Shown here one piece after another: positions 1-48,293 of a stretch of 48,293 bases of DNA. Location of the stretch: positions 1-48,293 of the IMG/VR virus record IMGVR_UViG_3300009431_000520; one strand, 5' to 3'. Both the position numbers and the translations under genes were made by a program. Source of the stretch: a virus. Numbering within the stretch: the stretch's first letter is position 1; the number at the start of each line of letters is the position of its first letter. The notes under the pieces are model-generated. The model saw only the letters and a program-made list of their open reading frames with translations. It made no database searches and was not told the origin of the DNA.

Positions 1-119
1 CTAAAATTTCTATCCAATAAACCTACTTCTTGTAATTTTCTACCAAAATCATCAGCGAGATCAGTAATGTCAATAGATTTATCATGTATATTTTTAACAA
101 CACCCTTACCAGTCCTAAC
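1..119. repeat. 119-bp terminal direct repeat (copy 1)
   Basis: Positions 1-119 are identical to 48175-48293. The repeat lies inside one continuous reading frame, so it is best read as the overlap left when a circular or circularly permuted genome is assembled rather than a biological terminal repeat. Its length fits a k-mer assembly overlap. Unique genome length is then 48,174 bp. Confidence 0.95.
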
Positions 120-4471: not shown

Positions 4472-4725
4472 GTTAGTTCCACCACCTTTTGATTTCCGGA
4501 AATGTTTATAATATTGTAAATCTTTCCATCATCTGTATCTCGCCAATATGCAAAGGTATTCCTTTGTATCGTAGGTTCTGTAGCCTGTTCAAATATTCTT
4601 GGGAACTTATCAAGATACTGCACTATATTAAATACATCTCTATCAAGCGTATTAATATAATCCTTGAGTTTCTCAATATCCTCAAATCCAATAAAATTGC
4701 TTAACTTTTTAGGTTTATCAGCCAT
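4468..4725 (-). CDS. Small tail-region protein (85 aa)
   Basis: An 85-residue protein with a helical N-terminal half and a C-terminal beta segment (FAYWRDTDDGKIYNI) like the short tip or adaptor proteins often found after tail hub genes. Its stop region overlaps the downstream zinc-ribbon gene by 4 nt and its start abuts the stop of the tail hub gene. No family recognised. Confidence 0.65.
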   Translation of the reverse strand: MADKPKKLSNFIGFEDIEKLKDYINTLDRDVFNIVQYLDKFPRIFEQATEPTIQRNTFAYWRDTDDGKIYNIINISGNQKVVELT

Positions 4726-6272
4726 TATATCGTCTCCAGATGTGGCATAGTTCCAAATCCGTCTACTTGAAATGTCTCAGACGCAGTATTGTTACGAAAC
4801 CTAAATCTTACCACTCTGCCCCTGCCAAGAGCAGTATCTATTCTTTTTACGTTTCCACCACTTCTTGCATAAGTAGCTGTGTCATAAACCCCTGTTCCGT
4901 AAACATCAGCACTCGTTGATAAATCAATGGAAAGGGTCTGCTGTGGATCGCTGTCAAAATCATAAGAATACGAAAATGAAAGAGTATTAGAAGCTATCTG
5001 GTAATAAAGGGTAAGGTGTGCTACGCCCTTCTTATCAACCAAATCATCATAATGCTTCCAATTTGTCCAGTAATAAGCATCTATGGCTGTCTTGACATTA
5101 ATAGGGTAGTCGTCAGCACCTGTGTCTGACCTATAGACAAACCCTGCATAATCCCCCCAGTAAGGTCTTTCCTCAACACCACTTACATAGAAAGTAGCCA
5201 TACTCGCAGGATCTAACCCATCATATAAAGTCCAAGCATTGTTGAAGTAATCCCACACCACCACTTTGTCGTTCTCAGAACTACCGCTTGCAGTTAAGGC
5301 ACACCAGTATCTATTCTTGCTCTTCTGCACAAGGCTTACTGCATTAGAGTATTTAAGGATATTCATTGTATCCAGTGTAGCGGTAATCTTGTCGCTTATT
5401 TTAAATGAGTTCATACCATCGTAGAAATAGAACCCATCTTGTGCTAAGAATACAAGCCCATTATCAACCTCTTGTATTGAGAAGGGTGCGGCACAACCTA
5501 CTGCTGAGTTACTTTTACCACCACCGGGAAGGATAAAGGGAACATCAACATCACCAGTAAAGAACACATTATAAATAGAACGGTCTTTAAAAACTACCAA
5601 CCTATCGGATAAAACCTGTAACCCCTGTATCTGTTGTCCATCATCTCTGGATACATCTATAAAATCAGTAGCTGTCCAAGTCTTAGAGTCTTTAAGATTA
5701 GACCAGTATATCCTCGATGTGTGCGTGCCGCCTGAGAGAGTGATATTGCCTAAGAATAAATAGTTATTAAACAACTCCACATACTTGGCTTTCGTAAGGT
5801 TTGTGGGTATCTCTGCCGCTGCAAGACCTGTGTTGTTAGCCCCATCCCACAGGAAGGGAACATCATTACCATTGGTCATATAAAGTCTGTTCTCAAATAC
5901 CGCCCCATCTATGTGGTAGCCAGTGGTAATAGAGATGCTTGAGGTGATATTATCCCAAGTTCCGTCTAAATCATCCATCCTATAACACTTATCCCCTGCT
6001 ACAGTTACAGCCTTTCTCGTAAGAGCACCGCCTGCAATATACTCAAACCAGAATAAACCATTCATATCTGCCCCAGAATTCAAGGTAGCCGTATTCAAAG
6101 CAGTATATCCGTTCCTTTTTATAATAGACCCGAACTTATCAAAGTCTATATTCTGCAGGTCGCTTGATTCGTTGTTCTGCAGACCTAAAGCCCCAGCGGT
6201 GGTATTTAACCCACCATTGAGGATTTTATCAGAAATTGGAACTGAAGCTGTTGTGTAAGGTATCCCAGCCAT
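4725..6272 (-). CDS. Tail hub/needle-platform protein, P22 gp10-like (515 aa)
   Basis: A 515-residue beta-rich protein with repeated blades such as FENRLYMTNGNDVPFLWDG, FNNYLFLGN, LSDRLVVFKDRSIYNVFF and LVFLAQDGFYFYDG. These resemble the beta-propeller of podovirus tail hub proteins (P22 gp10 and relatives). The N-terminus has the common LNTTAGALGLQNNESSDLQN segment of this group. It directly follows the gp4/tail-tube-like gene. Assignment rests on this repeat pattern and gene order. Confidence 0.75.
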   Translation of the reverse strand: MAGIPYTTASVPISDKILNGGLNTTAGALGLQNNESSDLQNIDFDKFGSIIKRNGYTALNTATLNSGADMNGLFWFEYIAGGALTRKAVTVAGDKCYRMDDLDGTWDNITSSISITTGYHIDGAVFENRLYMTNGNDVPFLWDGANNTGLAAAEIPTNLTKAKYVELFNNYLFLGNITLSGGTHTSRIYWSNLKDSKTWTATDFIDVSRDDGQQIQGLQVLSDRLVVFKDRSIYNVFFTGDVDVPFILPGGGKSNSAVGCAAPFSIQEVDNGLVFLAQDGFYFYDGMNSFKISDKITATLDTMNILKYSNAVSLVQKSKNRYWCALTASGSSENDKVVVWDYFNNAWTLYDGLDPASMATFYVSGVEERPYWGDYAGFVYRSDTGADDYPINVKTAIDAYYWTNWKHYDDLVDKKGVAHLTLYYQIASNTLSFSYSYDFDSDPQQTLSIDLSTSADVYGTGVYDTATYARSGGNVKRIDTALGRGRVVRFRFRNNTASETFQVDGFGTMPHLETI

Positions 6273-7505
6273 TTATATCACCCGTGGTCCATAAAAACTT
6301 CCCACTTGCCTATAACTCAAATTAGAGTGAACCAGAAAGTCCCTGCTTCCCTGCCCGGCTCTTTTCAACTTTGGAAACCAGTCAATCTTATCTGCATTGG
6401 TTCTTTTTAAAGACCTCATCTCATCTTGCCACATAGTGTAGAACGTCTCTGTGCCCTGCTTAATCTCTGTCTCTCCCTTTATCTTGGAAACAGCCAGAAG
6501 AATTATAGCCTCATCAAAATCCTGCCCTAATTCATGGACATCTTCATCGGCTACCAATCTATAGGGGTCTTTATAATACTGAATGTTCATATCGAAGGCA
6601 GAGCTTGGTAGAGGATATAATTGTATCTTCCGATAAATTATACCTGCTGTAGTGTCTCCGACTGGTAGGACTGCCACAATAGTATTAGCAGTATTACAAT
6701 CAACAGTAATCCTCCCAGTAGTAGAAGCATTTTTTACCACTCTTTCTACTGTTTGGAAGCTCTTTGAGCCATTCACAACAGTAGTTCCATTAGAAGAATT
6801 GGTTGTTATAACCTCGAAATCAGGATAACCAGCTACAGTCCCAAACACAGTAACCTTAATAGAAGTATCCCCTGAAGCAGAGGAAGCTATCCTCATAACA
6901 GAGGCTTCTTTAGGTTGCTCCATTACCATATCCTCCCCCCACATACGATAGTGGGTAGGTATGTCCTCATCTGTGTTATAAGCATTGGTTTGATAGAAAT
7001 CTTGGTCTGTGATGTAGTTCATTTTATAAGGGTAACCCCACTCCTCGTGCCAAAGGAACATCCTATGCCCTGCTTGCACTGGGAGGTTGTATTCTTCCTG
7101 TCCTAATATCTTATAAGTTCCATCAGTAACAGAGCTACCTGAGTAGCTGTGATCCAATGTTATAGCTGTTTCCCCTGTTACTTTGCGGATTATAAAATAC
7201 TGCCCATCACCTTCGAGCTTTATTCTCCTCCCTACCCTGACACCTTCCGTAAGAAAGGTAGCACCAGTTATTGTTATCGTGCTTGTGTTCACAGTAAAAG
7301 CTCCAGCCCCAGAACCTGCTTCATAATACTTCTTAGTCCTGAAGTGTGTTTTACGCCTCATTATCCTCCAAGGGGCTTCACGGCTTATCCTGAACAGAGA
7401 GGTATTTATTAGGTTCTTTGTAGGAGTATCATACTGAGTGCCAGATTGGTCTTTTGTAGCACGACGCTTAACTTCGTCGGCTAAATCCTTGAATGTCATT
7501 GACAT
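6273..7505 (-). CDS. Head-tail adaptor / tail tubular protein (410 aa)
   Basis: The N-terminal helical region (FKDLADEVKRRATKD, then NTSLFRISREAPWRIMR) and the C-terminal helical region (YYKDPYRLVADEDVHELGQD) match podovirus tail-tube/adaptor proteins, which contact the portal ring. A beta-rich insert of about 80 residues around 195-285 looks like an Ig-type or beta-sandwich domain that decorates such rings. It ends immediately before the tail hub gene. The gene upstream is an intruding HNH nuclease, so the operon has been interrupted here. Confidence 0.7.
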   Translation of the reverse strand: MSMTFKDLADEVKRRATKDQSGTQYDTPTKNLINTSLFRISREAPWRIMRRKTHFRTKKYYEAGSGAGAFTVNTSTITITGATFLTEGVRVGRRIKLEGDGQYFIIRKVTGETAITLDHSYSGSSVTDGTYKILGQEEYNLPVQAGHRMFLWHEEWGYPYKMNYITDQDFYQTNAYNTDEDIPTHYRMWGEDMVMEQPKEASVMRIASSASGDTSIKVTVFGTVAGYPDFEVITTNSSNGTTVVNGSKSFQTVERVVKNASTTGRITVDCNTANTIVAVLPVGDTTAGIIYRKIQLYPLPSSAFDMNIQYYKDPYRLVADEDVHELGQDFDEAIILLAVSKIKGETEIKQGTETFYTMWQDEMRSLKRTNADKIDWFPKLKRAGQGSRDFLVHSNLSYRQVGSFYGPRVI

Positions 7506-7507
7506 GA

Positions 7508-7861
7508 CTATCTCCCTTCTTGTATCTCTTCCATATGTATCTTCATATGTTTACTTCTATCAATTAATTCGAGATTTTCTATCCTATTGTCTAACTTATT
7601 GCCATTAATATGATGTATAATCTCTGTTTGAGTAAGTTCTCTACCAAGATACTCCTCAAATATTAACCTATGTTCTGCTTCAACATCACTCTTTACAGTA
7701 AATATATATCTATAACCATCTTTAATATAAACTCCGCCTCTCCAATTCGGGCACTTCTCTCTTTTTCTACCAACCATCCATTTACCATAACCTCTTTCAA
7801 TGGCTCTTTTCCTTATGGCTTCTCTATGTTCTGGCGTTCTAATATAACTGCCTGTTCCCAT
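7508..7861 (-). CDS. HNH homing endonuclease (117 aa)
   Basis: Contains EHRLIFEEYLGRELTQTEIIHHINGNKLDNRIENLELI, shown here only as its two parts: the AEHR strand and the HHINGNKxDNRxENL core of free-standing HNH homing nucleases (histidines at about residues 83-84, Asn at 93-97). A GGAG site lies 8 nt before the ATG. It interrupts the tail module, and 105 nt upstream of it carry no gene. Such genes are selfish and usually dispensable. Certain as an HNH protein; target unknown. Confidence 0.9.
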   Translation of the reverse strand: MGTGSYIRTPEHREAIRKRAIERGYGKWMVGRKREKCPNWRGGVYIKDGYRYIFTVKSDVEAEHRLIFEEYLGRELTQTEIIHHINGNKLDNRIENLELIDRSKHMKIHMEEIQEGR

Positions 7862-7966
7862 ATTACCATCTCCATTTCATACGAAAACCTGTATATTTTG
7901 TCTTGCTAATTGGGGTTTCGAATTCCCCTATTTCTAAATGAGAGCCTACGAAGTGCAAGAACTTTC

Positions 7967-8200
7967 CTACCCGGTAGACCCTGTGAACTTTTTTAACAAC
8001 TCCGATAATCTAAACAGGGCTTTCTGTATTCTCTCTGTCCAAGCCTCTATTAAATCCACCAAACCATCTTGTGATGGCTGGAATATGTTAATAAGACCTG
8101 CTGCTACCTTACCTATTGCCCCGATAACACCTACCACCATATTCACATTCTTAACAAACCACGCAGCTATTGAAGTCAGAAAAGCTACAATCTTCATCAT
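7967..8200 (-). CDS. Small membrane protein, possible holin (77 aa)
   Basis: The first 40 residues form one or two hydrophobic segments (IVAFLTSIAAWFVK and VVGVIGAIGKVAAGLINIF) followed by an amphipathic helix with charged residues. It is one of four tiny genes in a row (8736 down to 7967), overlapping the upstream 58-residue gene as ATGA. A hydrophobic N-terminus with a charged tail fits a holin or other lysis membrane protein, but no endolysin is found beside it, so the function stays open. Confidence 0.5.
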   Translation of the reverse strand: MMKIVAFLTSIAAWFVKNVNMVVGVIGAIGKVAAGLINIFQPSQDGLVDLIEAWTERIQKALFRLSELLKKFTGSTG

Positions 8201-8373
8201 ATACCTCCTTTATCAACTTCGCCTTCTACGAATTCAATTAGTGCCAAACTTTCACTTAAATGCTTTTTAGCTTTTGTAAAGTGTATAATTGTTTTTTGCA
8301 TCTCATCTTCTGATTTTTTTAAATCAGCTATTACCTTTTTAAGAATATGCAAATCAATATTTACTGTTGCCAT
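8197..8373 (-). CDS. Short coiled-coil protein (58 aa)
   Basis: Minus-strand frame from the ATG at 8373-8371 to TGA at 8199-8197. The sequence is a single amphipathic helix (HILKKVIADLKKSEDEMQKT and on) with a heptad-like pattern. It overlaps the 77-residue membrane protein genes on both sides. Tight coupling to membrane proteins suggests a shared process. No family recognised. Confidence 0.6.
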   Translation of the reverse strand: MATVNIDLHILKKVIADLKKSEDEMQKTIIHFTKAKKHLSESLALIEFVEGEVDKGGI

Positions 8374-8587
8374 TTTTCTTTATGAAATCCTTTATATCAT
8401 CAAAGCGATTATCAACATGGTTTTGGAAATCATCTATTCTCTTACTTACTGATTTCTGAGCTGAATGACACTCGTTCTTAGTTACTTTATTGTTAAGTCT
8501 ACCATTCAACATTCTACCCATAAAAAGACATATGCCTACCAATGTTAAAACCCCTATTGGTTGAACGTATGGTATTAATTCTTCCAT
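8354..8587 (-). CDS. Single-pass membrane coiled-coil protein (77 aa)
   Basis: One clear transmembrane helix at about residues 11-28 (GVLTLVGICLFMGRML) followed by a charged helical stretch (QKSVSKRIDDFQNHVDNRFDDI). This layout recalls small spanin-like or holin-accessory proteins. The start overlaps the upstream 49-residue gene stop as TAATG. Function is uncertain. Confidence 0.55.
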   Translation of the reverse strand: MEELIPYVQPIGVLTLVGICLFMGRMLNGRLNNKVTKNECHSAQKSVSKRIDDFQNHVDNRFDDIKDFIKKNGNSKY

Positions 8588-8736
8588 TATTGTGCTTTCT
8601 TCTCAGGCTCAACTTTCTTCGCAGGAGGTTTATTCATTTCCTCGGCTATTTGACGTTTGGTTTCACTAAGCTTTCCCTGTATAACTTCTGCCTGTATCAT
8701 TAGTTTGCCATATTGTTCATACAGTTTATCCAGCAT
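8587..8736 (-). CDS. Small helical protein (49 aa)
   Basis: Starts at ATG 8736 behind a GGAGG site; stop TAA at 8589-8587. The sequence is an amphipathic helix followed by a Pro/Lys/Glu tail (PPAKKVEPEKKAQ). It heads the four-gene set of tiny membrane-associated proteins. No homolog recognised; supported by ribosome site and the 1-nt TAATG coupling to the next gene. Confidence 0.6.
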   Translation of the reverse strand: MLDKLYEQYGKLMIQAEVIQGKLSETKRQIAEEMNKPPAKKVEPEKKAQ

Positions 8737-8745
8737 AAAACCTCC

Positions 8746-9021
8746 TTATGTTACATCATCTGCATTATAGGATGACTGATCATCTCTATATTTAGCGTTC
8801 TTACCCCTGACTATCTGAGCTTTCACACTCCTAAGTATATGTTCCCTAACCCACTGGGCATCAGTATATTTGGGTATCTGCGGAGCTTTACTCCCATCAT
8901 CAGGGTCTACCCATTCAGGGTCATCAATGGTTTCTGTATTCTTGTGAACATATACATAATCACTTATATACTCCACTGCCTTTGCCTGTGGTATTGTGTA
9001 ACTCAAAACTACGTTTGCCAC
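8746..9021 (-). CDS. Conserved-type phage protein (91 aa)
   Basis: Begins with beta strand (VVLSYTIPQAKAVEYISDYVY) and ends with a helix (WVREHILRSVKAQIVRGKN), the pattern of a small phage protein often found between fibre and lysis genes. An AAGGAGG site precedes the start at 9021. I cannot assign a function. Confidence 0.65.
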   Translation of the reverse strand: MANVVLSYTIPQAKAVEYISDYVYVHKNTETIDDPEWVDPDDGSKAPQIPKYTDAQWVREHILRSVKAQIVRGKNAKYRDDQSSYNADDVT

Positions 9022-9030
9022 AAATCCTCC

Positions 9031-10383
9031 TTATGGTTCTAATCTTGCCAAAAGTTTATAAGCTGTTCCGTTTATTGTCACATCTACATATCCTGTATCC
9101 ACAACTGTTCCTGCTGTATAGTCATTCAAATCCCAATCATCATCAGAGGCTGTTCTGATAGTGCTTGCTGTATCCAAATCATTGTCAAAAGTATACTTAT
9201 CAAAATTGGTAAAATGCACTTCGTCATTAGCTTGTACGTTTTCACTGTTGAATATCCAGTCTGCTCCATCAAAATAATCAGAAACATCGTCTCCACCACC
9301 TCTGTAATACTTAAAATTATCAAGATTGTTATATAAATCTGTTGTTTTTAATTCAAGATAAGAACCAAAAAATATAGAACCAACTGTTCCAGAAGTATCT
9401 CCTGAACCCCCATTACCTGCGTTAAATTGAACATCCCCACCATCTCCACCTGTTGTTGCTCCACTTCCTCCAGCTCTTATCGCAATACCCCCAGAACCTG
9501 CGTTAAACGTTAAATTTGTTCCTTTTCCTGCTACAGCGTCACCCACTCCGCCAGAGTATGCTGCACCCCCAGCCCCTCCTGTAAAAGAGTAAACTCCTGC
9601 ATCCCCGCCTGTTGCTAATCCTGTTCCTGTAGTAAGACCATATCCACCCTCTCCACCAGTAAACTTAAAATCTCCGCCATCCCCACCAGTGGCAGCATCA
9701 TCAGCTCCTATTTTAGCTCCACCAGCACCAGATTCCATATCTACACCTGCACCGATTAACCCAGCTCCTCCATCAATTCCCAGCATCTTTAACCTGTCAT
9801 CTCCTGTGGTTGTAAACTCTAAACTTATATCTTTACCAGTTCCAAAAGATAATTTGGTATCGTCAGCCAATCCCAATACACCAGAACCATCCTCTTTGGG
9901 ATTTACCCACATATCTGTCCCATCATAATAGATAGAAGCGTCTTGGTCTTCCCCGAACAGTAATTTCTGACTATCTGCATTTATCCTTACCTCGCCTGCA
10001 GCATACGCCTGAAAGGGTGCATTCGCTTGAGTAGAATTTCCTAACCACAAGTCGTCGCCTGCTCCTGTGGTGTAGATATCACCATCTGAATAAATAGATG
10101 TTCCAGCATATATTGTGCCAGAGGTTGTAATACTTCCACCAACTTCTAATGTATCGGAAAAAAGAAATTTATCTCCAGCATTATTCCATGATAGCGATTC
10201 ACCAGTAGGGCTTCCATCTTCAGCGAAATAAATGAAGGTATCTGTTCCGTCTGTCCCTAAATAGAGATTCTTACTTATAGCTAAGTCCTCTGTTATAGGG
10301 TCATTGGAGGCATCAAGTTTGAGATAACGAGCATCTCCTGCAGTTTCGCTTATACCACCGGGACTACTTAATCTAACACTCAT
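9031..10383 (-). CDS. Glycine-rich fibre-like virion protein (450 aa)
   Basis: The N-terminus (GGISETAGDARYLKLDASNDPI) is a fibre attachment motif seen in many tail or head fibres. Residues 1-200 contain beta repeats (IYYDGTDMWVN type). Residues 205-345 are extraordinarily glycine-rich, with GG at short regular spacing (GGDGGDFKFTGGEGG, GGAGGAAYSGG), the pattern expected for stacked polyglycine or beta-solenoid turns. The C-terminal 100 residues are a distinct beta domain that could be the tip. Probably an appendage used in adsorption. Confidence 0.7.
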   Translation of the reverse strand: MSVRLSSPGGISETAGDARYLKLDASNDPITEDLAISKNLYLGTDGTDTFIYFAEDGSPTGESLSWNNAGDKFLFSDTLEVGGSITTSGTIYAGTSIYSDGDIYTTGAGDDLWLGNSTQANAPFQAYAAGEVRINADSQKLLFGEDQDASIYYDGTDMWVNPKEDGSGVLGLADDTKLSFGTGKDISLEFTTTGDDRLKMLGIDGGAGLIGAGVDMESGAGGAKIGADDAATGGDGGDFKFTGGEGGYGLTTGTGLATGGDAGVYSFTGGAGGAAYSGGVGDAVAGKGTNLTFNAGSGGIAIRAGGSGATTGGDGGDVQFNAGNGGSGDTSGTVGSIFFGSYLELKTTDLYNNLDNFKYYRGGGDDVSDYFDGADWIFNSENVQANDEVHFTNFDKYTFDNDLDTASTIRTASDDDWDLNDYTAGTVVDTGYVDVTINGTAYKLLARLEP

Positions 10384-10664
10384 AAATTACCTGTTCTCTC
10401 CCAATAGGCAACATCTGCTGTCCCATTAGCTGAAGTTGTCATACCCCATATATCGCCCTTATACATTCTTCCACCGCTTGAATCTTCAGTTAAATTACCA
10501 TCTGCCTGTAAAACAATAGCAGTAGCAGAAGTAATAGTGCTATCAGGACCTAAATAAACAATCCCTGACGTTGATGCATTAGTCAATATCAGGGACTGCC
10601 TTCGAGTATTCTCGCCTAAAATCTTAGTTGCTGATGTTCCTACATTTACAGTTCCAAATCCCAC
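10380..10664 (-). CDS. Small virion protein, beta-rich (94 aa)
   Basis: A 94-residue beta-sandwich-like protein: TKILGENTRRQSLILTNAS, YLGPDS and GDIWGMTTSANGTADVAYWE. These blocks are typical of small fibre-base or decoration proteins just upstream of fibre genes in phages. The stop overlaps the fibre start by 4 nt. No enzymatic features. Confidence 0.65.
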   Translation of the reverse strand: MGFGTVNVGTSATKILGENTRRQSLILTNASTSGIVYLGPDSTITSATAIVLQADGNLTEDSSGGRMYKGDIWGMTTSANGTADVAYWERTGNL

Positions 10665-10667
10665 GTT

Positions 10668-11111
10668 TTAGTCCTTTGGTTGAGGACCAAAACCTCCGTA
10701 TCTATCCTGTCCGCCACCAGTGGTATCTTTTCCACCACCAAGAACTTTTATGGCTTCGACTCTTTTAGGTAGTTCATCCTTATGAACCTTGCTTGCTTTT
10801 GCAGCAAATTCTTCCTCTACCTTCTTCTCGTCATAGCCAAAGGCTTTAAGGTAATCATCTACGGTATTAAAACCTTGATTCCTCATAGCCTGTAAGAATT
10901 CTGGATTTCTACGGAAGTTCTCACCCAAATGGTCCACGTTAGCCTTGAAGAGCTCAAATAGGGCTGCACGATCTCCGCCCTCATATATATAGTCATCTCC
11001 CGGCTGTATCTCTTTTTCGTCTACTACTTTCACTTTACCAGACAAATTCTTTAATGCTATCCTCTCTTTAGCTGGATACCATGCACCTTCTTTTGATACA
11101 AATTTCGGCAT
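10668..11111 (-). CDS. Virion-region protein with MPxFxSKxGAWxP start (147 aa)
   Basis: The N-terminus MPKFVSKEGAWYPAKE recurs in the next gene upstream (MPEFISKGGAWLPKPK), so the two share a domain of about 15 residues. The rest has a beta part (LSGKVKVVDEKEIQPGDDY) and a helical part (RAALFELFKANVDHLGENFR), ending in a Gly/Gln tail. Proteins of this kind occur in head-gene clusters and may be head completion or decoration proteins; that is a positional inference. Confidence 0.65.
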   Translation of the reverse strand: MPKFVSKEGAWYPAKERIALKNLSGKVKVVDEKEIQPGDDYIYEGGDRAALFELFKANVDHLGENFRRNPEFLQAMRNQGFNTVDDYLKAFGYDEKKVEEEFAAKASKVHKDELPKRVEAIKVLGGGKDTTGGGQDRYGGFGPQPKD

Positions 11112-16646: not shown

Positions 16647-16883
16647 TTAGCCTGCAAAATGTTGAGAGTAATCTAAAATACCACTCAACTTCTGCATTAC
16701 GTCAGATTTAGGACTTTCTCCTATTTCTTCTTCTAAGATACTTAATAATGTCATATATGGAAAATTAGCTTCGTAATTATTGAACTTAGTATGTATTCTT
16801 GATGTAAAGTCATCTATTCTTTCAATGGCTTCTATATTGTCTATAGATATACTAAATCCTTGTTTAATTTCAAGAAATCTAAT
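16647..16883 (-). CDS. Hidden gene with apparent AUU start (78 aa)
   Basis: The minus strand from 16883 to 16647 is an uninterrupted 78-codon frame reading (M)RFLEIKQGFSISIDNIEAI and on to LSGILDYSQHFAG, then TAA. No ATG, GTG or TTG occurs at its front; the codon a suitable distance behind a GAGAGGTG ribosome site is ATT, and it overlaps the TAG of the split HNH gene as ATTAG. The composition looks like a real phage protein. AUU is a rare but known start. Alternatively the HNH gene's arrival destroyed the original start. Confidence 0.55.
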   Translation of the reverse strand: MRFLEIKQGFSISIDNIEAIERIDDFTSRIHTKFNNYEANFPYMTLLSILEEEIGESPKSDVMQKLSGILDYSQHFAG

Positions 16884-18567
16884 TTTTACTCACCTCTCTA
16901 TACTCTTTTAATGTCTTATTATGTTTTCTACTATTACAACTACGATGAGCAACAGCCAAATTCTCATAATTATTGCTCCCACCACGACTTAGTGGCATTT
17001 TGTGTTCAAGGCTATCTTTCCCAAATTCTATAGACTTATCACAAAGATAACAAGTTAATGTTCCATATTTCTTAATGTTATCTTCATAAAGAAGTTGAAT
17101 AGTTTGCTTTTTAAGTATTCCTCCACCTTTTTTTAAAGATTGCCTTACTTGATTTGCCATCTTCTTTTTGTTCATTTCAACAGTTCTGACGAGACGAAAA
17201 CCGTAATCGTTGAAATGACGGCCCGGATCAGTGCGGTGACGACAAGCAGAGCGAAAGTACTCGTCACCATAGTAGTGGTCCCAGGAACCGCCGCGCAACA
17301 CACGGTAATCCGCCTTGCTAGTGTTAAGTGGATCTTTATATTTTTCACCTTCTTTATAAAAGCTGTCACTATACCAGTCGATACACCATTCCCAGACATT
17401 ACCGATCATACCGTACAATCCCCATTGGTTTGGTTTCTTTTGCTTTACTGGCTGGGCCGACTTATTGTCCTGTGATCCTTTATTTTGAATAGCAAAATCA
17501 TCTATTTTATCTATATCTTTATCCCAGTAATAAGTTGTATCCGTCCCTGCTCTAGCTGCGTACTCCCATTCGGCTTCGGTCGGGAGACGATATAATCTTG
17601 CTTTTCTGTTTTTAAAAGCATATTGTAAATAGGCCTCCGCATCCAGATCTTTAATCGCCTCTTTAACATCACTGGTAATATCTTCCGATAAAAGAGATAG
17701 CTGTTTGCAGTAATCTACCGCTTCATACCAGTTGATCCTATCTGCCGGCGCATTTTCATCTTCAGCGTAAAAGCCATCCTCATACGGATGTTTTTTTATT
17801 ATTGCCAACAGCTGTTTCTGCGTTATCGCTGTTTCAGCGAACTGGACCGCACCGACTGTTACCTGATGCGACGGATTATCATCTTTATCCTCTACACCGC
17901 CCATCGTATAAGTGCCTCCCGGCAGCTGGATCATCGTAAGGCCGGCGATAGGCTCGGTGTATGATTCAAAATCGGCTACTACCGTTGGAATATTTACCCC
18001 ATCTACTTCTCTTAATGACTTTTCCGTTGCGGCGATCAACGCATCCGCGCTATCCAGCCGTTTTTGATAGGCTTTAAGTGTTTTCGCTAACTCTTTTTTG
18101 GGCAAGCCAAGTGTTTTCTTCTTCTCCATAGAAACAGCTAGCGCATCCCGCTTTGCTTTGATTGCCTCAAGCGTAGACTGTTTTTCGCCAACCGGCATTG
18201 TTTCCAGCCTAGTGCTCAATGAATTATATTTAGAATTATATTTATATGCCATCTTCTTTTTAGGACTTCTTCTATACCAATCTTTCTGATATTTATTCCT
18301 GTATACTTTATCAGAAAGTATTCTTTTTCTTCTTCCATCAATCCAATTATTGGCATTTTCACCAACGGCAAATCTATCATGACACTTTCTACATCTTTTA
18401 GCTTTACGAGTTGAAGTTGGATTACCACAATCTAAGCATTTATTTTTTCCTTTAATTCTTCGAATACCAGAACATTTCGGACTACAACAAAATTGCTTCT
18501 TTGCTGATGGAACAGTTCTAAACTCAATTCCACAAATCTCACAATTTTTAAAGTAGCCTGTTTTCAT
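16879..18567 (-). CDS. HNH endonuclease split by an FGE-sulfatase/C-lectin domain with a DGR-type variable region (562 aa)
   Basis: Residues 1-102 form the zinc-finger N-terminus of an HNH nuclease (CEIC, CCSPKC, CLDC, CRKC). Residues 499-562 are its catalytic end (CYLCDKSIEFGKDSLEHKMP, then LSRGGSNNYENL and CNSRKHN). Between them sits a 364-residue foreign block: a coiled coil (about 118-190) and a formylglycine-generating-enzyme-like C-type lectin domain (LTMIQLPGGTYTMGG, RLPTEAEWEYAARAG, GNVWEWCIDWY, VLRGGSW, GFRLVR). The block is bounded by a 15-bp direct repeat coding KKKMA; removing one repeat unit restores an in-frame 198-residue HNH protein. Several stretches of the block are visibly richer in GC than the flanks. 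The lectin fold is the usual DGR target fold. Catalysis by the FGE part is unlikely to be its role here. Whether the fusion is expressed and stable is unknown. Confidence 0.85.
   Translation of the reverse strand: MKTGYFKNCEICGIEFRTVPSAKKQFCCSPKCSGIRRIKGKNKCLDCGNPTSTRKAKRCRKCHDRFAVGENANNWIDGRRKRILSDKVYRNKYQKDWYRRSPKKKMAYKYNSKYNSLSTRLETMPVGEKQSTLEAIKAKRDALAVSMEKKKTLGLPKKELAKTLKAYQKRLDSADALIAATEKSLREVDGVNIPTVVADFESYTEPIAGLTMIQLPGGTYTMGGVEDKDDNPSHQVTVGAVQFAETAITQKQLLAIIKKHPYEDGFYAEDENAPADRINWYEAVDYCKQLSLLSEDITSDVKEAIKDLDAEAYLQYAFKNRKARLYRLPTEAEWEYAARAGTDTTYYWDKDIDKIDDFAIQNKGSQDNKSAQPVKQKKPNQWGLYGMIGNVWEWCIDWYSDSFYKEGEKYKDPLNTSKADYRVLRGGSWDHYYGDEYFRSACRHRTDPGRHFNDYGFRLVRTVEMNKKKMANQVRQSLKKGGGILKKQTIQLLYEDNIKKYGTLTCYLCDKSIEFGKDSLEHKMPLSRGGSNNYENLAVAHRSCNSRKHNKTLKEYREVSKN
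17155..17169. repeat. 15-bp direct repeat, downstream copy at the insert boundary
   Basis: TGCCATCTTCTTTTT occurs here and at 18247-18261. The spacing is exactly 1,092 bp, or 364 codons. The repeats coincide with the two edges of the foreign domain inside the HNH gene, as expected for a target duplication or for recombination between short matching sequences. Confidence 0.9.
17203..17280 (-). other. DGR-type variable region (VR), 26 codons
   Basis: Residues 430-455 of the split HNH protein lie between RGGSW and GFRLVR, the exact place of the variable segment in FGE-type targets of diversity-generating retroelements. Twenty-four of the 26 codons end in C or T and none ends in A, the footprint left when AAY template codons are mutated at their adenines to NNY. 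Residues are D, H, Y, G, C, R, T and N at the lectin-surface positions. No template repeat or reverse transcriptase is found in the window, so any diversification would need one elsewhere, or the VR is a fossil. Confidence 0.75.
18247..18261. repeat. 15-bp direct repeat, upstream copy at the insert boundary
   Basis: Second copy of TGCCATCTTCTTTTT (see 17155-17169). On the coding strand it reads AAAAAGAAGATGGCA, giving KKKMA at residues 103-107 and again at 467-471. Confidence 0.9.
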
Positions 18568-21961: not shown

Positions 21962-23465
21962 ACCTCTTCTTGTCGGGCTTGTTCATTTTTATGGCTTGTT
22001 TACGCCACCACTCGAATTCGTCGTCTTTCTCTTCGACGATCTTCTTCTGTGTCTTAGGATACTGAAGAAGCTGGACAAGACCTTGCAGGGCATCAGGTAA
22101 GTCATCGTGTGCACCTGACGGAAAACGGAGAAGCTGGTGTTCTAATTCACCCATGTTTCGTCGGTGGTAAATAGAGTGTTGTGCATATCTGGGTTCTAAC
22201 CTCGTCAGAACACGCTGGACTTTGTCAGTATCCCAGAGGAGTGGTTTAAAGAGCAACCACCTATTTCTCCGTCGCATAGCTTGTTGCATAAGAAACTGCA
22301 TTACCTTCTCGAGCTTCGCCTTCTCCCACCCTATTGGAACAGAAGTGCCAGTAAGAGCTCTCATACGTTCTTCCATCGAGAACAGTATCTCCTCCATCTC
22401 ATGGGGTCTCAAACCTTTCTTGCAGATGTAACTCTCTATCAATAGGTCTGACTGTGGAGTAAGAAAAGCAGGTAATACGACGGAGAAATCACTTTCTCTC
22501 TTTTCTTCCCACGCTAAATCACAAGATATAGCAGCCTTGCACTCCCTGAGGGGATACTTGGCTACTATCCTTCCCTCGTCGAAGAGTATAGCTTCTAAGT
22601 TCTCTATTGTCCAGTAACGGAAGTCCTCTCGGTGGAACTTCCTCATAGCCCCAGCGACGGGGTCATTCTGGTATTCTTTGGCAAATACGGAGGGTTTCTC
22701 TCTCGAGAGGCGTTTAAGGTCCTCAACAGACCACTTATCCTCCCATAAGGATATCTCTTTCCCGTCAATCTCGTTCAAAGCTCGATAAAAGCCCTTCTTA
22801 TACTCGGGGTAGTGTTCTTTTGATACAAGTTTAGCCATTAAAGAGTCATCATGTAAGATAGTCCCTATGAAGATATACTGACACTCCTTTTTATCTCCGG
22901 CGGGTATCAGGGCATCGTCGAACTCTGACTGAAGGTTCTCTCGTCGTTCTCTTGAACGCACCATGACGTCATCTTCGAGGTCATCACCAATAATCAAATC
23001 AGGTCTATATGGACCAAACTTCTCTCCTCTCACCGACCCTATCTGTTCATGCCCTTTACAGAGAACTCTTGTCTTAAACCCGTCGGGGTGGACAAAGATT
23101 GTGTCCCCCTCTGAGTCCTTCTCGAACTTAATACCATAGTGGTCTATAAGCATCTGATTATTACGAAACTCGTCTTTAATAGTCCCTAAAGCCCCGGCTG
23201 CCTTTGCATAAGTATTCATTGTAATAACGATGAAGTGCTTCTTCTTATTAGCAATACAGTGGGCTGGATAGAGAAAAGTCAGTAGAGTAGACTTAGAGGA
23301 CTCACGGGGAGAGGCTATAGAAAGCCAGCGTGTCTCCAGGCACTTATCTAAGATTTCAAGATGAAAATCAGGTGTTGGGAGGGAAAAGTGCTTAGGGCAG
23401 TAAAACTTACCCCAATGAAAAGGGTGGTAAGAGAGTTCTTCTAATAGGTTCTTGTAGTTATCCAA
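21903..23465 (-). CDS. terL: Terminase large subunit (520 aa)
   Basis: ATPase: a Walker A variant SPRESSKST at residues 52-60 and Walker B PDLIIGDDLEDD at about 155-166. Nuclease: the RNase H-like start ISCDLAWEEK near residue 310 and the late HDDLPDALQGL acidic motif. Size and order match phage packaging motors. It starts 8 nt inside the end of an HNH gene and 480 nt from the small subunit stop. It would pump DNA through the portal and cut it. Confidence 0.92.
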   Translation of the reverse strand: MDNYKNLLEELSYHPFHWGKFYCPKHFSLPTPDFHLEILDKCLETRWLSIASPRESSKSTLLTFLYPAHCIANKKKHFIVITMNTYAKAAGALGTIKDEFRNNQMLIDHYGIKFEKDSEGDTIFVHPDGFKTRVLCKGHEQIGSVRGEKFGPYRPDLIIGDDLEDDVMVRSRERRENLQSEFDDALIPAGDKKECQYIFIGTILHDDSLMAKLVSKEHYPEYKKGFYRALNEIDGKEISLWEDKWSVEDLKRLSREKPSVFAKEYQNDPVAGAMRKFHREDFRYWTIENLEAILFDEGRIVAKYPLRECKAAISCDLAWEEKRESDFSVVLPAFLTPQSDLLIESYICKKGLRPHEMEEILFSMEERMRALTGTSVPIGWEKAKLEKVMQFLMQQAMRRRNRWLLFKPLLWDTDKVQRVLTRLEPRYAQHSIYHRRNMGELEHQLLRFPSGAHDDLPDALQGLVQLLQYPKTQKKIVEEKDDEFEWWRKQAIKMNKPDKKRYVYGRKEKGHKIPAKISFR

Positions 23466-23805
23466 TGGTTAATAAACCTCTATGTATAAGTCTATGGCAG
23501 TTAGGACAACTAGACATCATATTCTCCATATTATAAGTTCCAATTGGGTCTTTTCTATGAACATCACAAGGACCTTCCCAGCCACATATCATGCATTTTG
23601 TATCTAAACCTCTATCTTTAAACTTCTCTTTTGATTTACGTCTAGAAGCTGGAGACCTTTCCATTCCATAACGTTTAGTATGGTGTTTATCGCATAAAGA
23701 AGCTCTATATATCTTGTTCCTTATACGCTTACTCCATCTTCCTAAGTTATTACAACCCTCAATTCTACAAATCTTGCGGGAATCAAAAATTTTTATGTTT
23801 TCCAT
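23458..23805 (-). CDS. HNH endonuclease (115 aa)
   Basis: Zinc and HNH features: CRIEGCNN, LCDKHHTKRYG, CMICGWEGPCDVHRKDPIG and CPNCHRLIHRG. It lies between the two terminase genes with its own promoter (23827-23855) and an AGGAGG site. HNH proteins beside terminases sometimes assist packaging cleavage; a homing element is the other reading. Confidence 0.88.
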   Translation of the reverse strand: MENIKIFDSRKICRIEGCNNLGRWSKRIRNKIYRASLCDKHHTKRYGMERSPASRRKSKEKFKDRGLDTKCMICGWEGPCDVHRKDPIGTYNMENMMSSCPNCHRLIHRGLLTIG

Positions 23806-32940: not shown

Positions 32941-33841
32941 GACCATTCTTTTGACAGGCGGCACAGGAACTTTCGGAACAGCTTTTACTCAATCCATCTT
33001 ACAATACAATCCAAAGAAATTAATAATCTTCAGCCGGGATGAATATAAGCAATCCCTAATGGTTAAAGACTTCCCTCAAGATAATATTCGCTTCTTTATC
33101 GGTGATGTAAGGGATAGGGAACGCCTTGGCAGAGCCTTTGAGGGGGTAGACTATGTAGTCCATGCTGCTGCCCTTAAACAAGTTCCTGCACTTGAATACA
33201 ATCCCACAGAAGCAGTTAAGACTAATATAGACGGAGCAAATAACATAATAAGTGCTGCGATAGAAAAGGGAGTTAAGAAGGTAATAGCTCTCTCGTCGGA
33301 TAAAGCAGTTAATCCTATAAACTTATATGGGGCTACGAAATTAGTGGCGGAGAAGCTTTTCCTTGCAGCTAATGCTTATGGAGGTAGGAAAGTAGAGTTC
33401 TCTGTTATCAGATACGGAAATGTAATAGGTTCAAGAGGCAGTGTGGTATCTTACTTTTTAGACTTGGCAAGAAAGCAAATAAAGGAATTCCCCATTACTC
33501 ACCCTGACACTACACGCTTCTGGCTATCCAAATGGCAAGCTGTGTATTTAGTGATAGAGATGCTGAGTATGTCTTGTAAGGGGGAGATATGGATACCGGA
33601 GATACCTTCCATGAAAATCATAGATGTAGCTAAAGCAATAGACCCTGACTGTGAGTTTAAGATAATAGGCTTGAGGAAAGGGGAGAAACTGCACGAAACT
33701 CTTATCTCCAAAGCAGAGGGAGATGAATTTACATCCAATAAAAATAAATGGTGGCTGACTAAAAAAGAATTCTGGAGGCTAACAAATGAAAACTGTTGCA
33801 ATAATTCAAGCTCGCTTAACGTCTACACGATTTCCTCGTAA
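32930..33841 (+). CDS. pseB: UDP-GlcNAc 4,6-dehydratase, PseB-like (303 aa)
   Basis: NAD-binding TGGTGTFG at 9-16 and the hallmark ALSSDKAVNPINLYGATK (catalytic region) place it in the inverting 4,6-dehydratase family. It would convert UDP-GlcNAc to the 4-keto-6-deoxy sugar that begins pseudaminic acid and related sugars. The last 20 residues are read over the next gene and may not be needed. No PseC or PseI homolog follows, so the host or other genes must complete a sugar. Confidence 0.88.
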   Translation: MLDKTILLTGGTGTFGTAFTQSILQYNPKKLIIFSRDEYKQSLMVKDFPQDNIRFFIGDVRDRERLGRAFEGVDYVVHAAALKQVPALEYNPTEAVKTNIDGANNIISAAIEKGVKKVIALSSDKAVNPINLYGATKLVAEKLFLAANAYGGRKVEFSVIRYGNVIGSRGSVVSYFLDLARKQIKEFPITHPDTTRFWLSKWQAVYLVIEMLSMSCKGEIWIPEIPSMKIIDVAKAIDPDCEFKIIGLRKGEKLHETLISKAEGDEFTSNKNKWWLTKKEFWRLTNENCCNNSSSLNVYTISS

Positions 33842-34337
33842 GATATTGGCAAAGATAGGGGATAAGACAATGCTACAGTGTGTGATAGATGCAGCAAGAA
33901 TGGTATCTGACATTGATAAAGTTGTTGTTGCTATCCCTGCAGGACAGAAAATACCATTTAAAGGAGCAGAAAAATTTGAAGGGTCTGAATTAAATGTTTT
34001 ATGTAGATATTATTATTGTGCTGAAAAATATGCTGCAAATAGAATTATAAGAATTACTGCTGATTGTCCAGCTTTAAAACCCATCACAATAATAACAGCA
34101 ATAGGTTTATATGAAGCATATAATTTTCCCTATTTAATTTATTCGCCTTTAAATGGATTAGATGTAGAAGTTTTTAGCTTTGAAATGCTGAGAGAAGCAT
34201 GGAAAAATTCCTTTGATTTATATGATTTAGAACACGTTACACCATATATGAAAAGAAAAACTAAACTTTCAGTGGACACAAAAGAAGATTTGGAGGTGGT
34301 GAAAGCATGGATAGCTGGAAAAGGACTTGTGAGATAA
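33786..34337 (+). CDS. Cytidylyltransferase, SpsF-like (183 aa)
   Basis: AIIQARLTSTRFPRKILAKI is the nucleotide-binding signature of acylneuraminate cytidylyltransferase-like proteins (SpsF/KdsB relatives). ITADCPALKP holds the next motif. At 183 residues the domain is somewhat short. It would activate a sugar acid or similar compound with CMP. Overlaps the aminotransferase gene by 31 nt. Confidence 0.8.
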   Translation: MKTVAIIQARLTSTRFPRKILAKIGDKTMLQCVIDAARMVSDIDKVVVAIPAGQKIPFKGAEKFEGSELNVLCRYYYCAEKYAANRIIRITADCPALKPITIITAIGLYEAYNFPYLIYSPLNGLDVEVFSFEMLREAWKNSFDLYDLEHVTPYMKRKTKLSVDTKEDLEVVKAWIAGKGLVR

Positions 34338-35488
34338 TCCCTTCCGGAGTGCAGACTATGTCAAAAAGACCCTCTCAGTATGCCGAGAACTGCCCGAAGA
34401 AGATAGAATATGCAAGTGGCTGTCGTGTCTATAGTGGAAAAGATAAGGAATACATAGACTATACCTGTGCTTTAGGGGCGATAAGTTTGGGCTATGGGTT
34501 TCCTCCTGTTGATTACGCAGTAAGTAGCCAGATACAGAAAGGTATACTCTATGGACTATCCTCCCCGAAAGAAGCTGTATTGGCTCAAAAGCTCATTGAT
34601 TTAATCCCCTGTGCTGAAATGGTGAGGTTTCTTAAAACAGGCAGCGAGGCTTGCTCAGCAGCAGTTAAAATAGCTAAGTCATATACTGGAAGAAACGGTA
34701 TAGCCTCATATGGCTATCATGGCTGGCACGAGTGGGAAAACAGGCACGAATTTGAATATAATGACCTAAATCTGCTTACGGAGATACTTAAATATAAAAA
34801 GGTGGCAGCAGTTATTATAGAACCTTATGTCTACGATCCACCAGCAAATGGTTACCTGATGGATGTTATAAACTTAGCCCACAAATATGGTGCGTTGGTA
34901 ATATTTGATGAGATAGTAACCGGTTTTAGGACTCTTGGATGGTCAGCTCAGAAATTCTTTAAAGTAATCCCTGACTTAACTACTCTTGGGAAGGGCATGG
35001 GTAATGGCTACCCTATCTCAGCAGTAGTGGGTAAGAAGAAGTATATGAAGGAATTAGAGAAGAAATGTTTTGTATCCTCTACATTTGGCGGAGATTTAAT
35101 AGGTATTAGTGCCGCTATAGCCACTATTGACTATATGAAGAAGCACGACGTAATAAACCATATATGGGCTATGGGAACAGATATTAGAGAGTGGTTTAAT
35201 ATAACTACAAGAGAATTCATGTTGCCAGTGTGCTGTAAAGGCTATGCTTGCCGGACTACCTTTGAGTTTCCCCTTGAGGAAGCAAAGCAACTATTTTGGA
35301 GAGAGTGCTTAAAAAGAAGGGTGTTATTTGGTAAAGCCCAGTTTATTTCCTATTCCCATAAAGTAGAGGAAATTGATACCACAATTAAAGTAATACAGGA
35401 AGCCTTAATGAAAGTAAAGGAGGTTTATGGTCACTGCGATAGTCCCGGTAAAAACAAAGTCAGAAAGACTGCCAGAAAAAAATCTTAG
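34307..35488 (+). CDS. Class III aminotransferase (GSA-aminomutase-like) (393 aa)
   Basis: LKTGSEACSAAVKIAKSYTGRNGIA, VIFDEIVTGFR and TTLGKGMGNGYPISAVVG, with the PLP lysine in GKGMGNGYP, are clear class III motifs. In surface-sugar clusters such proteins often accompany SpsF-like cytidylyltransferases, as here. It may aminate a keto sugar or another carbonyl compound. A first start at 34307 overlaps the previous gene; IPSGVQTMSK follows. Confidence 0.85.
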   Translation: MDSWKRTCEIIPSGVQTMSKRPSQYAENCPKKIEYASGCRVYSGKDKEYIDYTCALGAISLGYGFPPVDYAVSSQIQKGILYGLSSPKEAVLAQKLIDLIPCAEMVRFLKTGSEACSAAVKIAKSYTGRNGIASYGYHGWHEWENRHEFEYNDLNLLTEILKYKKVAAVIIEPYVYDPPANGYLMDVINLAHKYGALVIFDEIVTGFRTLGWSAQKFFKVIPDLTTLGKGMGNGYPISAVVGKKKYMKELEKKCFVSSTFGGDLIGISAAIATIDYMKKHDVINHIWAMGTDIREWFNITTREFMLPVCCKGYACRTTFEFPLEEAKQLFWRECLKRRVLFGKAQFISYSHKVEEIDTTIKVIQEALMKVKEVYGHCDSPGKNKVRKTARKKS

Positions 35489-36071
35489 ATACTTTATAGA
35501 CTGCCCTCTCTATGAGCATAAGTTACGCCAGATACAAAAAGCTCCATTTGACCAGATCGTAGTATCCTCCGAAAGCAAGGAAGTGCTGAAAGTTGCCGAG
35601 AAATATAATTGTATCCCCCACCTTAGAGACCCTAAATACTCCACCCCGGATATACCTATGAGTGAGGTATATAAGTATCTGGCTTCAGTAGTAGGAACAG
35701 GAGATATAGCTTGGGTAAATGTCAATAATCCTTTAGTAGAGGAAGCAGAATATAAACAAGCTATTGCAGCATGGAAATTTATTAAGAATGATAATGATTG
35801 CCTTCTATCGGTAGATAGCCTGCAAAGATATATCTACTGGCAGGGTAAGCCCTTAAACTGGATACCGGAAGCACACCCTAAGAGCCAAGATTTGGGAGGG
35901 TTGTGGGCTTTGAACTTTGCAATAAATATCCGCCCAAAAGAAGATGTTGTTAAAACAGGGTGTTTCGTAGGGGCAAATCCACATTTCCTTGAAATAGATA
36001 AGTATAAAGCTACTAAAGTAGACTATGCAGAAGATTTAGAAATTTGCAGATTGTTATGGAAAAGAAATTAG
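35427..36071 (+). CDS. CMP-sugar / acylneuraminate cytidylyltransferase-like (214 aa)
   Basis: IVPVKTKSERLPEKNLRYFIDCPLYEHKL is the N-terminal CMP-binding motif; later VNVNNPLVEEAEY and KSQDLGGLWALNF match NeuA/PseF relatives. It starts 61 nt inside the aminotransferase gene. A second CMP-transferase beside the first suggests two CMP-activated products, one of which could be a phosphonate rather than a sugar. Confidence 0.8.
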   Translation: MVTAIVPVKTKSERLPEKNLRYFIDCPLYEHKLRQIQKAPFDQIVVSSESKEVLKVAEKYNCIPHLRDPKYSTPDIPMSEVYKYLASVVGTGDIAWVNVNNPLVEEAEYKQAIAAWKFIKNDNDCLLSVDSLQRYIYWQGKPLNWIPEAHPKSQDLGGLWALNFAINIRPKEDVVKTGCFVGANPHFLEIDKYKATKVDYAEDLEICRLLWKRN

Positions 36072-36100
36072 TAAGCGAAGTAAGAAAAGGAGGAAGATTT

Positions 36101-36367
36101 ATGAGAAAGGTATTAGTAGTAGTCATTATGGCTACAATGCTATTTACCGTTCCTGCGTTTGCTTTGTTTGATGATAATTCGACAAATCAACAGCAACAGC
36201 AAGGAATAGCAGATAGTGGTAATTCAAACAACTCGAATAGTAATTTAGCAACAGGTGGTGCTGGTGGCAATGCCTGTCAAGGGCAAGGACAACAGCAAGG
36301 ACAGCAACAAGGACAAGGGCATTTTCGAAGAAAGTTACCAGTCATACAATCAAAGCAGGAAAAATGA
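36101..36367 (+). CDS. Secreted Gln/Asn/Gly-rich protein (88 aa)
   Basis: A strong AAAGGAGG site precedes the ATG. Residues 1-21 are a signal peptide (RKVLVVVIMATMLFTVPAFA, cleavage after AFA). The mature part has a Gln run, an NSNNSNSN stretch and a QGQQQGQQQGQGH repeat. Exported low-complexity proteins are unusual in phages. It may coat or stick to the cell surface. Confidence 0.65.
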   Translation: MRKVLVVVIMATMLFTVPAFALFDDNSTNQQQQQGIADSGNSNNSNSNLATGGAGGNACQGQGQQQGQQQGQGHFRRKLPVIQSKQEK

Positions 36368-36373
36368 AAAGCT

Positions 36374-36544
36374 ATGAGTAAGCTGCCTATAATGGTTAAA
36401 TTATTGTTATGGCTCACAAGAAAGCATAAATGGCATAAAGATTGGTTTGGTTGTTGGATATGTGAAATAAGATTAAAAAATAACCCAGATAAACCGAGGA
36501 TTAATTATGAACAAAATGAGGGAAGTAGTAATCAAAATATCTAA
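36374..36544 (+). CDS. Small basic protein (56 aa)
   Basis: Trp- and Lys-rich N-terminal half (LLLWLTRKHKWHKDWFGC) and a polar tail. It overlaps the next gene by 38 nt and has only a weak ribosome site. Function unknown. Confidence 0.45.
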   Translation: MSKLPIMVKLLLWLTRKHKWHKDWFGCWICEIRLKNNPDKPRINYEQNEGSSNQNI

Positions 36545-36773
36545 CATAGCTGATTTATATGCACCTCAACGCTATCATACAGTAGACCAAGCCCTCCACG
36601 CCCTATGGCGAGCGGTGGAGGAAAGTTTGCCTGAGGAAAAGAAAAGATACTTCGTTGTTGAAGCACAAGATGGTGGACATTGGGTAGAATTAAACACCAT
36701 AGAATATGGTCATAATGAAGCTCTCAAAGATGTCCGAGAGAGGCCGAAGAGGCTGTTTGTGGGGGAGAAATGA
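36507..36773 (+). CDS. Conserved-type small protein (88 aa)
   Basis: A soluble alpha/beta protein (YHTVDQALHALWRAVEESLP). No family recognised. It couples to the gene after it by a 4-nt overlap. Confidence 0.55.
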   Translation: MNKMREVVIKISNIADLYAPQRYHTVDQALHALWRAVEESLPEEKKRYFVVEAQDGGHWVELNTIEYGHNEALKDVRERPKRLFVGEK

Positions 36774-36904
36774 GGATACCTTGTAGATGGCGATTACATA
36801 GACCAAAAGAGATGGTTAGGTATCTTCTTAATGCTTTTGGGTTGTTAGCCAACGACGGATGTAAAGAGTTCAACACGGATAATTGGTTTGGATTAAAGAA
36901 ATAA
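36770..36904 (+). CDS. Small basic protein (44 aa)
   Basis: GGGGGAG site and ATGA overlap; the product is a short basic protein with two Cys residues. Family unknown. Confidence 0.5.
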   Translation: MRIPCRWRLHRPKEMVRYLLNAFGLLANDGCKEFNTDNWFGLKK

Positions 36905-36934
36905 AGTTACTTTGCTTCGCTTACTAATTTAATT

Positions 36935-37804: not shown

Positions 37805-37973
37805 TAATTTTAGTAAAAAAGAAATATTTGAAGATAATAAACCTATAAAATTAAGGAAAGACGAGGTGTTTGTAACATTCATGAAATTCAAAAGACGGTT
37901 ATTTGTTATGACAACTCAACGGATATATGAAATAGTAGAAAACAAGGAGAAAAAGTATGGCTTACGGAAATAG
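37785..37973 (+). CDS. Small basic protein (62 aa)
   Basis: Lys/Phe-rich strands (VFVTFMKFKRRLFVMTTQRI) overlapping the epimerase and the reductase genes. A GGAGG-like site and intact frame support it. Function unknown. Confidence 0.55.
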   Translation: MKKVYFSNFSKKEIFEDNKPIKLRKDEVFVTFMKFKRRLFVMTTQRIYEIVENKEKKYGLRK

Positions 37974-40111: not shown

Positions 40112-40112
40112 T

Positions 40113-40847: not shown

Positions 40848-41164
40848 AAGTCGGTATCCCCTACACTGGCTGTAAACACCAGAGTGAAGTTCCAGTAACA
40901 AGGGAAGATGAGGCTATTGCCTTTGCTGTGGGAGTGGCACTCGGTGGCGGTGAGTGCCAAGTTTATATGGACAACAGTGGGTTAGGGCAGTGCGTAAACA
41001 TAATATCCACCCTACTACGCCCCTACCAGATCACAATACCTTTGGAGGTGTCTGTAAGGCATGAACCTGAACACCATAAATACATGGGGAAGATTACAAA
41101 ACCTTTAATGGAGTTATTAGGATATGCAGAAAGCAATCCAAGAAATAATGTCAAAAGTAAATAA
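40844..41164 (+). CDS. Phosphonopyruvate decarboxylase, alpha/N-terminal subunit (106 aa)
   Basis: GTG start coupled to the upstream TGA. REDEAIAFAVGVALGGGECQVYMDNSGLGQCVN is the N-terminal pyrimidine-binding domain of TPP decarboxylases, with the conserved Glu. It is only 106 residues, shorter than the usual half. Sulfopyruvate decarboxylases are also split in two, so that reaction is the alternative, but PEP mutase next door favours phosphonopyruvate. Confidence 0.75.
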   Translation: MKVGIPYTGCKHQSEVPVTREDEAIAFAVGVALGGGECQVYMDNSGLGQCVNIISTLLRPYQITIPLEVSVRHEPEHHKYMGKITKPLMELLGYAESNPRNNVKSK

Positions 41165-47448: not shown

Positions 47449-48293
47449 CGCTTTTGAAGGAGGCGATTTAGTAATGAAGATGTTACTTTCGGTATTATTG
47501 GTTGTGCTCTTTGTGCTCCCTTTTGTAGTAACGATTGCAGTAGGCGTGCCGTTGCTTGTCTACGGAGTATCGCTTTCCCTGCTAATCTGGGCGTGCTTAA
47601 AATAATACCTGCCCCTACCGCAGGTAATACACCACCAAAGCCACCTGCTGCACCAAAGCCCAACGAGCCTAATAAGCCACTAAATATACCTGTTCTTATA
47701 CCAGAAAAGGTTGTCTTTGCAAAGCTTCTTGCAGCAAGAACATCACGCAATTTTGGCATAAAGGTATCTTCTATGCTAACTACTCTATTTAAACGCTTTA
47801 ACCCTTCTTCAAATATATGCTGTCCCGAGAAGGTAGATTTTAAGAAATTCTCTACAGTTTTATCATCCAATTTACCTTTAAGCAAATCTGCTATTTGTCC
47901 AAAAGCATCAAAATCGGAATTAGCTCTTGCAAAATCATCAGATATACCAATTAATTTTTGTTTTAATTGTTCTCTTAGACTTTTAGCTATAAAATCTTCC
48001 CCACCAGTTAAAGTTATTTTACCAGCATCATTAAATTTTATTAATCTATCTAATTGCTCTCTCCAACCTAATGCTCTTGCTGGGGAAATTTTATTTTTGC
48101 TTCTTAATAATTCAAAAATCCCAACAAGTTGACTTTGTCCTTTATCTAAACGCCCTATTTCTGGAGCTATGGCTCTAAAATTTCTATCCAATAAACCTAC
48201 TTCTTGTAATTTTCTACCAAAATCATCAGCGAGATCAGTAATGTCAATAGATTTATCATGTATATTTTTAACAACACCCTTACCAGTCCTAAC
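47445..48293 (-). CDS. Ejection/internal virion protein, C-terminal part (gene continues at position 968)
   Basis: Open to the window edge; bases 48175-48293 repeat 1-119 in the same frame. The part encoded here has charged helices (SREQLKQKLIGISDDFARAN-type) and, near the end, a Gly-rich hydrophobic segment (LGFGAAGGFGGVLPAVGAG) before a basic tail with LLQKR at the end. Such a hydrophobic glycine stretch could insert into the host membrane during ejection. The full protein is 565 residues. Confidence 0.75.
   Translation of the reverse strand, partial: VRTGKGVVKNIHDKSIDITDLADDFGRKLQEVGLLDRNFRAIAPEIGRLDKGQSQLVGIFELLRSKNKISPARALGWREQLDRLIKFNDAGKITLTGGEDFIAKSLREQLKQKLIGISDDFARANSDFDAFGQIADLLKGKLDDKTVENFLKSTFSGQHIFEEGLKRLNRVVSIEDTFMPKLRDVLAARSFAKTTFSGIRTGIFSGLLGSLGFGAAGGFGGVLPAVGAGIILSTPRLAGKAILRRQATARLLQSLLQKGAQRAQPIIPKVTSSLLNRLLQKR
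47474..47605 (+). CDS. Membrane microprotein encoded antisense to a virion gene (43 aa)
   Basis: A perfect AAGGAGG site stands 10 nt before the ATG. The product is almost all hydrophobic (LLSVLLVVLFVLPFVVTIAV, then LLVYGVSLSLLIWACL), two transmembrane helices. The whole gene lies within the 3' end of the minus-strand ejection gene. It follows the membrane glycosyltransferase by 25 nt and could be a partner or a holin. Confidence 0.55.
   Translation: MKMLLSVLLVVLFVLPFVVTIAVGVPLLVYGVSLSLLIWACLK
48175..48293. repeat. 119-bp terminal direct repeat (copy 2)
   Basis: Identical to positions 1-119; see that entry. Confidence 0.95.

Follow-up and report, generated by a model that had tools for sequence, protein, structure and literature searches.

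How can a phage gene carry the codon footprint of a diversity-generating retroelement (DGR) when its genome shows neither the reverse transcriptase (RT) nor the template that would have made it? The question is raised by a variable region (VR) of 26 codons in the virus record IMGVR_UViG_3300009431_000520, analysed here from position 1 to 48,293; "the window" refers to this whole record of 48,293 nucleotides. The matter reaches beyond a single locus, since surveys of DGRs start at an RT lying beside an imperfect repeat, and remote targets are invisible to them (Roux et al., PMC8144416). The features on which the argument rests are collected in Table 1, together with a group of accessory genes found in the same genome.

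Table 1. Features of the window, with positions counted from its first letter.
Feature	Position	Strand	Basis or remark
Composite 562-aa ORF: HNH N-terminal part, FGE/C-type-lectin insert, HNH C-terminal part	16879..18567	-	
HNH N-terminal part	18262..18567	-	GC3 0.17; joined outer parts align to phage HNH proteins
15-bp direct repeat AAAAAGAAGATGGCA, upstream copy	18247..18261	-	contains ATG
Insert: helical N-terminal stretch and FGE domain	17170..18246	-	GC3 0.42 outside the VR
FGE-sulfatase domain PF03781, TvpA-like C-type-lectin fold	17185..17937	-	residues 211-461, E 1.7e-46
Variable region (VR), NNY footprint, DHYYGDEYFRSACRHRTDPGRHFNDY	17203..17280	-	codon counts
15-bp direct repeat AAAAAGAAGATGGCA, downstream copy	17155..17169	-	
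HNH C-terminal part	16879..17154	-	GC3 0.22; HNH core 16915-17052 (PF01844, residues 506-551, 1.7e-8)
Direct terminal repeat, 119 bp	1..119, second copy 48175..48293	.	identical record ends
Cytidylyltransferase	33786-34337	+	
Aminotransferase	34307-35488	+	
B12 radical SAM	38783-40111	+	
PEP mutase	40101-40847	+	
TPP-enzyme C-terminal part	41124-41594	+	
Iron alcohol dehydrogenase part	41566-42042	+	

A Codon Footprint Beyond Amino-Acid Composition

In the frame of the composite ORF, the third bases of the VR codons are C (12), T (12) and G (2), and never A, which reproduces exactly the count of 24 C/T-ending and no A-ending codons made when the sequence was first read. Over the 59 non-overlapping ORFs of the window, which amount to 12,960 stretches of 26 codons, a value of 24/26 is attained solely in the ORF bearing the VR and in one other, the virion structural gene at 4728-6272 (phrog_3287). 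The raw figure of 24/26 nevertheless overstates the footprint, because 15 of the 26 residues (D, H, Y, F, C and N) permit C/T-ending codons alone. Where the third base is free to vary, 9 of 10 VR codons end in C or T, as compared with 0.43 for the part of the ORF that precedes the VR (binomial P ~0.003). The NNY pattern in the VR is therefore more than its amino-acid composition can account for, and after this free-codon test composition alone is a less likely source. At the second codon position A is kept far more often than at the first, a sign that any mutagenesis was overlaid by selection for Asp, Tyr and His.

Is the same pattern found in related genes? A control set of 12 FGE homologues was taken from cellular genomes without an RVT_1 match. 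In the segment equivalent to the VR, their C/T fraction ranges from 0.52 to 0.79, none of the 12 reaching 0.9, and their free codons are unskewed (93/170 C/T vs 0.57). Among viral FGE homologues, 24 of 46 have a C/T fraction of at least 0.9 in the VR segment, which represents about half of the distinct viral VRs, and C or T ends 500 of their 625 free codons, against 0.54. The sequence-only reading had named the codon pattern of homologues as a check on DGR origin; the NNY pattern is shared by roughly half of the viral VRs and not by the FGE homologues of RT-less cellular genomes. Its proposal of a DGR-type footprint is backed by the free codons, by this comparison and by the TvpA-like structure described below. 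It is from codons, homologues and structure, and not from comparison with a template, that we infer the DGR ancestry of the VR.

A TvpA-Like Domain

The VR lies near the C-terminus of the FGE/C-type-lectin domain, as it does in DGR target genes. Searched by sequence, the best match among solved structures is TvpA of Treponema denticola (2Y3C, 1.1e-27), which outranks the formylglycine-generating enzymes. The same structure ranks first when an AlphaFold2 model is submitted to Foldseek, with about 27% identity over the model. The pLDDT of the model averages 70 across the ORF; it lies between 80 and 97 in the greater part of the FGE domain, and the HNH parts are poorly modelled. TvpA itself is varied by a DGR and folds as a C-type lectin (PMC4891356).

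The donor gene of the insert was not found: identities do not exceed 38% in viral contigs, are mostly 28-37% in genomes, and stay below 60% in phage and plasmid records. A scan with the helical N-terminal part of the insert gave no relative, and defence-system models gave no match to the composite ORF.

A Probable Target Without Its Machine

That the 48 kb contain neither RT nor template had been claimed from the sequence, and the claim holds in three kinds of search. The RVT_1 profile has no match at E<=10 in the entire record, the RT active-site motif is not found in the long ORFs of the window, and no template repeat is seen on either strand, the best alternative site having 19 non-adenine mismatches in 78. 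The same kind of template scan does recover the template of an Algoriphagus locus (L087), used as a positive control. Scans of viral contigs for a template or a sister VR, made with three backbone patterns, of which the two later ones were verified to match the window itself, gave no match either, and none of the loci fetched carries a template matching the VR. The window thus has neither a DGR-type RT near the target nor a template repeat, both of which belong to a complete DGR. The identical 119-bp ends of the record suggest a whole genome, and the RT is therefore probably truly absent and not lost by truncation. No tRNAs were found in the window, nor were introns or other RNA families.

A Probable Insertion Scar

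The surroundings of the FGE domain, together with the direct repeat that bounds them, were not part of the sequence-only reading. The HNH core match in the C-terminal part of the ORF is above the curated cut-off. GC3 is higher in the insert (0.42) than in either outer part (0.17 and 0.22). When the two outer parts are joined, their alignment to the intact HNH proteins of Flavobacterium phage FpV4 and Mycobacterium phage Gaia runs through the junction and scores 62.8 bits against 53.5 for the unjoined ORF (FpV4) and 58.2 against 44.3 (Gaia). The joined parts thus resemble the HNH endonucleases of these two phages, from which the composite ORF differs in being broken by a 1077-bp insert and a second copy of the 15-bp repeat. 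The two copies of AAAAAGAAGATGGCA are spaced by 1092 bp, a multiple of three, and both junctions are in frame. In the window, no other exact direct repeat of 15 bp has its copies within 2.5 kb of each other; when the region was shuffled 300 times, 2 of the shuffled sequences contained one of that length anywhere. The insert and its flanking repeats resemble what an insertion into the HNH gene would leave behind, either through target-site duplication or through short-homology recombination, and the ATG inside AAAAAGAAGATGGCA is a candidate start codon for the FGE gene itself.

What remains of the host gene? Its HNH function has probably been lost or altered. The composite ORF is open along its full length, so the fusion protein may still be used. 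No intact HNH sister was seen in viral contigs, and those found in isolated phages are all distant. Besides the split gene, the window has further low-GC3 HNH genes at 7508-7861 (0.25) and 23458-23805 (0.26), and relatives of both occur in L139, a relative of the phage.

The relatives of the phage, defined by their terminase and portal (L096 and L131-L141), keep the gene order terminase, portal, small gene, scaffold, capsid. Five of them extend as far as the capsid gene (L134, L136, L137, L140 and L141), and in these no HNH or FGE match falls between it and the small gene. Neither FGE nor RVT_1 is found in any of 15 records of relatives, several of which are short fragments. Searching for the portal gave one short contig among viral contigs and no match among phage records. 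Between portal and terminase, the window carries a CDP-alcohol phosphatidyltransferase gene (PF01066, 21404-21961), and relative L131 has one as well.

Variable Regions in Other Viruses

An RVT_1 match is present in 2 of the 43 viral records carrying the nearest FGE homologues, many of these records being fragments, although some of the RT-less ones reach 80-90 kb. In several RT-less viral groups the VR is static, with 1/75 differences against 40/300 upstream in one comparison and 0/75 against 23/300 in another. Other RT-less homologues show the opposite pattern (23/75 in the VR against 6/300 upstream); these VR-variable records are short, and their contigs may end before an RT is reached. In RT-less viral FGE genes such as L033 with L059 and L034 with L037, the VRs are nearly identical while the 300 bases upstream differ by 8-13%, as would be produced by homogenising recombination or by strong selection. 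On a 121-kb viral contig without an RVT_1 match (L042), at least seven FGE genes stand in tandem at 4500-10700.

Frozen Capture or Continued Diversification

Taken together, and with a probability that we put at about 60%, these data describe a TvpA-like target whose VR was once diversified by a DGR, and whose gene, captured without RT or template and inserted in an HNH gene, is now frozen. According to this scenario, diversification would have taken place in an earlier genome, from which the target gene would have been carried into the phage, the RT and the template being left behind. The gene would then have inserted in frame into the linker of the HNH endonuclease gene, leaving the 15-bp direct repeat. 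In the present genome, the VR would be inherited and selected as a single binding variant, with no re-diversification; its frozen state in this phage population is an assumption, and its present role, if any, would be that of a fixed ligand-binding domain. The sequence-only reading had hesitated between diversification in trans and a frozen, captured VR. It is the second that fits better, because the insert sits in an HNH gene, because the relatives of the phage have no FGE or RT, and because VRs are static in several RT-less viral homologues.

Could the VR still be diversified in trans, by an RT and a template that the host, a prophage or a co-infecting phage supplies? We consider this unlikely, although just two G-ending codons break the VR pattern, a sign of little decay, and although service in trans is documented between loci of one bacterial genome (PMC10907252). 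The RT-less viral homologues with the more variable VRs speak for it as well, but the shortness of their records weakens them, and static VRs in other RT-less groups argue the other way. Moreover, no matching template was seen in the viral contigs scanned by pattern or in any locus fetched, and no host-phage case is documented in the DGR literature examined. A bolder form of the idea, in which an in-frame nuclease-lectin-nuclease chimera of the phage has its binding loop varied by a DGR that sits on another replicon and acts in trans, and so uses a borrowed mutator, strikes us as very improbable. There is also little likelihood that selection for Asp, His, Tyr, Asn, Phe and Cys in the binding loop made the pattern by itself, with no DGR history. 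Such residues do force 15 of the codons, and raw adenine mutagenesis would not predict that A is kept more at the second than at the first codon position; the free codons are skewed too, however, and no such skew is seen in FGE homologues of RT-less genomes. Finally, the composite ORF might be an assembly chimera that received its FGE gene from another genome, as could be suspected from the distinct composition of the insert and from the exact repeat at its borders. Usual assembly k-mers are longer than 15 bp, and the repeat is thus shorter than they are; an artefact would also require two junctions, both of them in frame, which makes this explanation a very doubtful one.

Precedents for an Orphan Target

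An orphan TvpA-like DGR target is ordinary in kind, RT-less ones having already been described in T. denticola, and it is the insertion site that is unusual. FGE-type targets persist in eight T. denticola isolates that have neither RT nor template, and the differences between their VRs and known templates fall mostly at adenines (PMC4891356). TvpA and the TvpA-like targets of this species likewise have an FGE-type C-type-lectin domain with a C-terminal VR, some strains being without RT and template (PMC4891356). Here, by contrast, the target lies in a phage genome and inside an HNH gene, and the footprint is read without a known template. Thiohalocapsa PB-PSB1 has incomplete DGR loci and remote targets, one of them non-varying and some with FGE domains (PMC10907252). 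These targets too are distant from RT and template, but the matching template is found elsewhere in that genome, whereas none was found for this phage.

The HNH insertion shows one way for a target gene to travel without its machine. Few viral FGE records have an RVT_1 match, although the NNY footprint is present in about half of the distinct viral VRs. A search based on this codon footprint would recover such orphan targets, and would allow one to ask how frequent frozen or trans-served variable genes are in phages.

Elsewhere in the genome, the plus strand from 33786 to 42042 carries genes resembling a phosphonate and surface-sugar pathway (Table 1).
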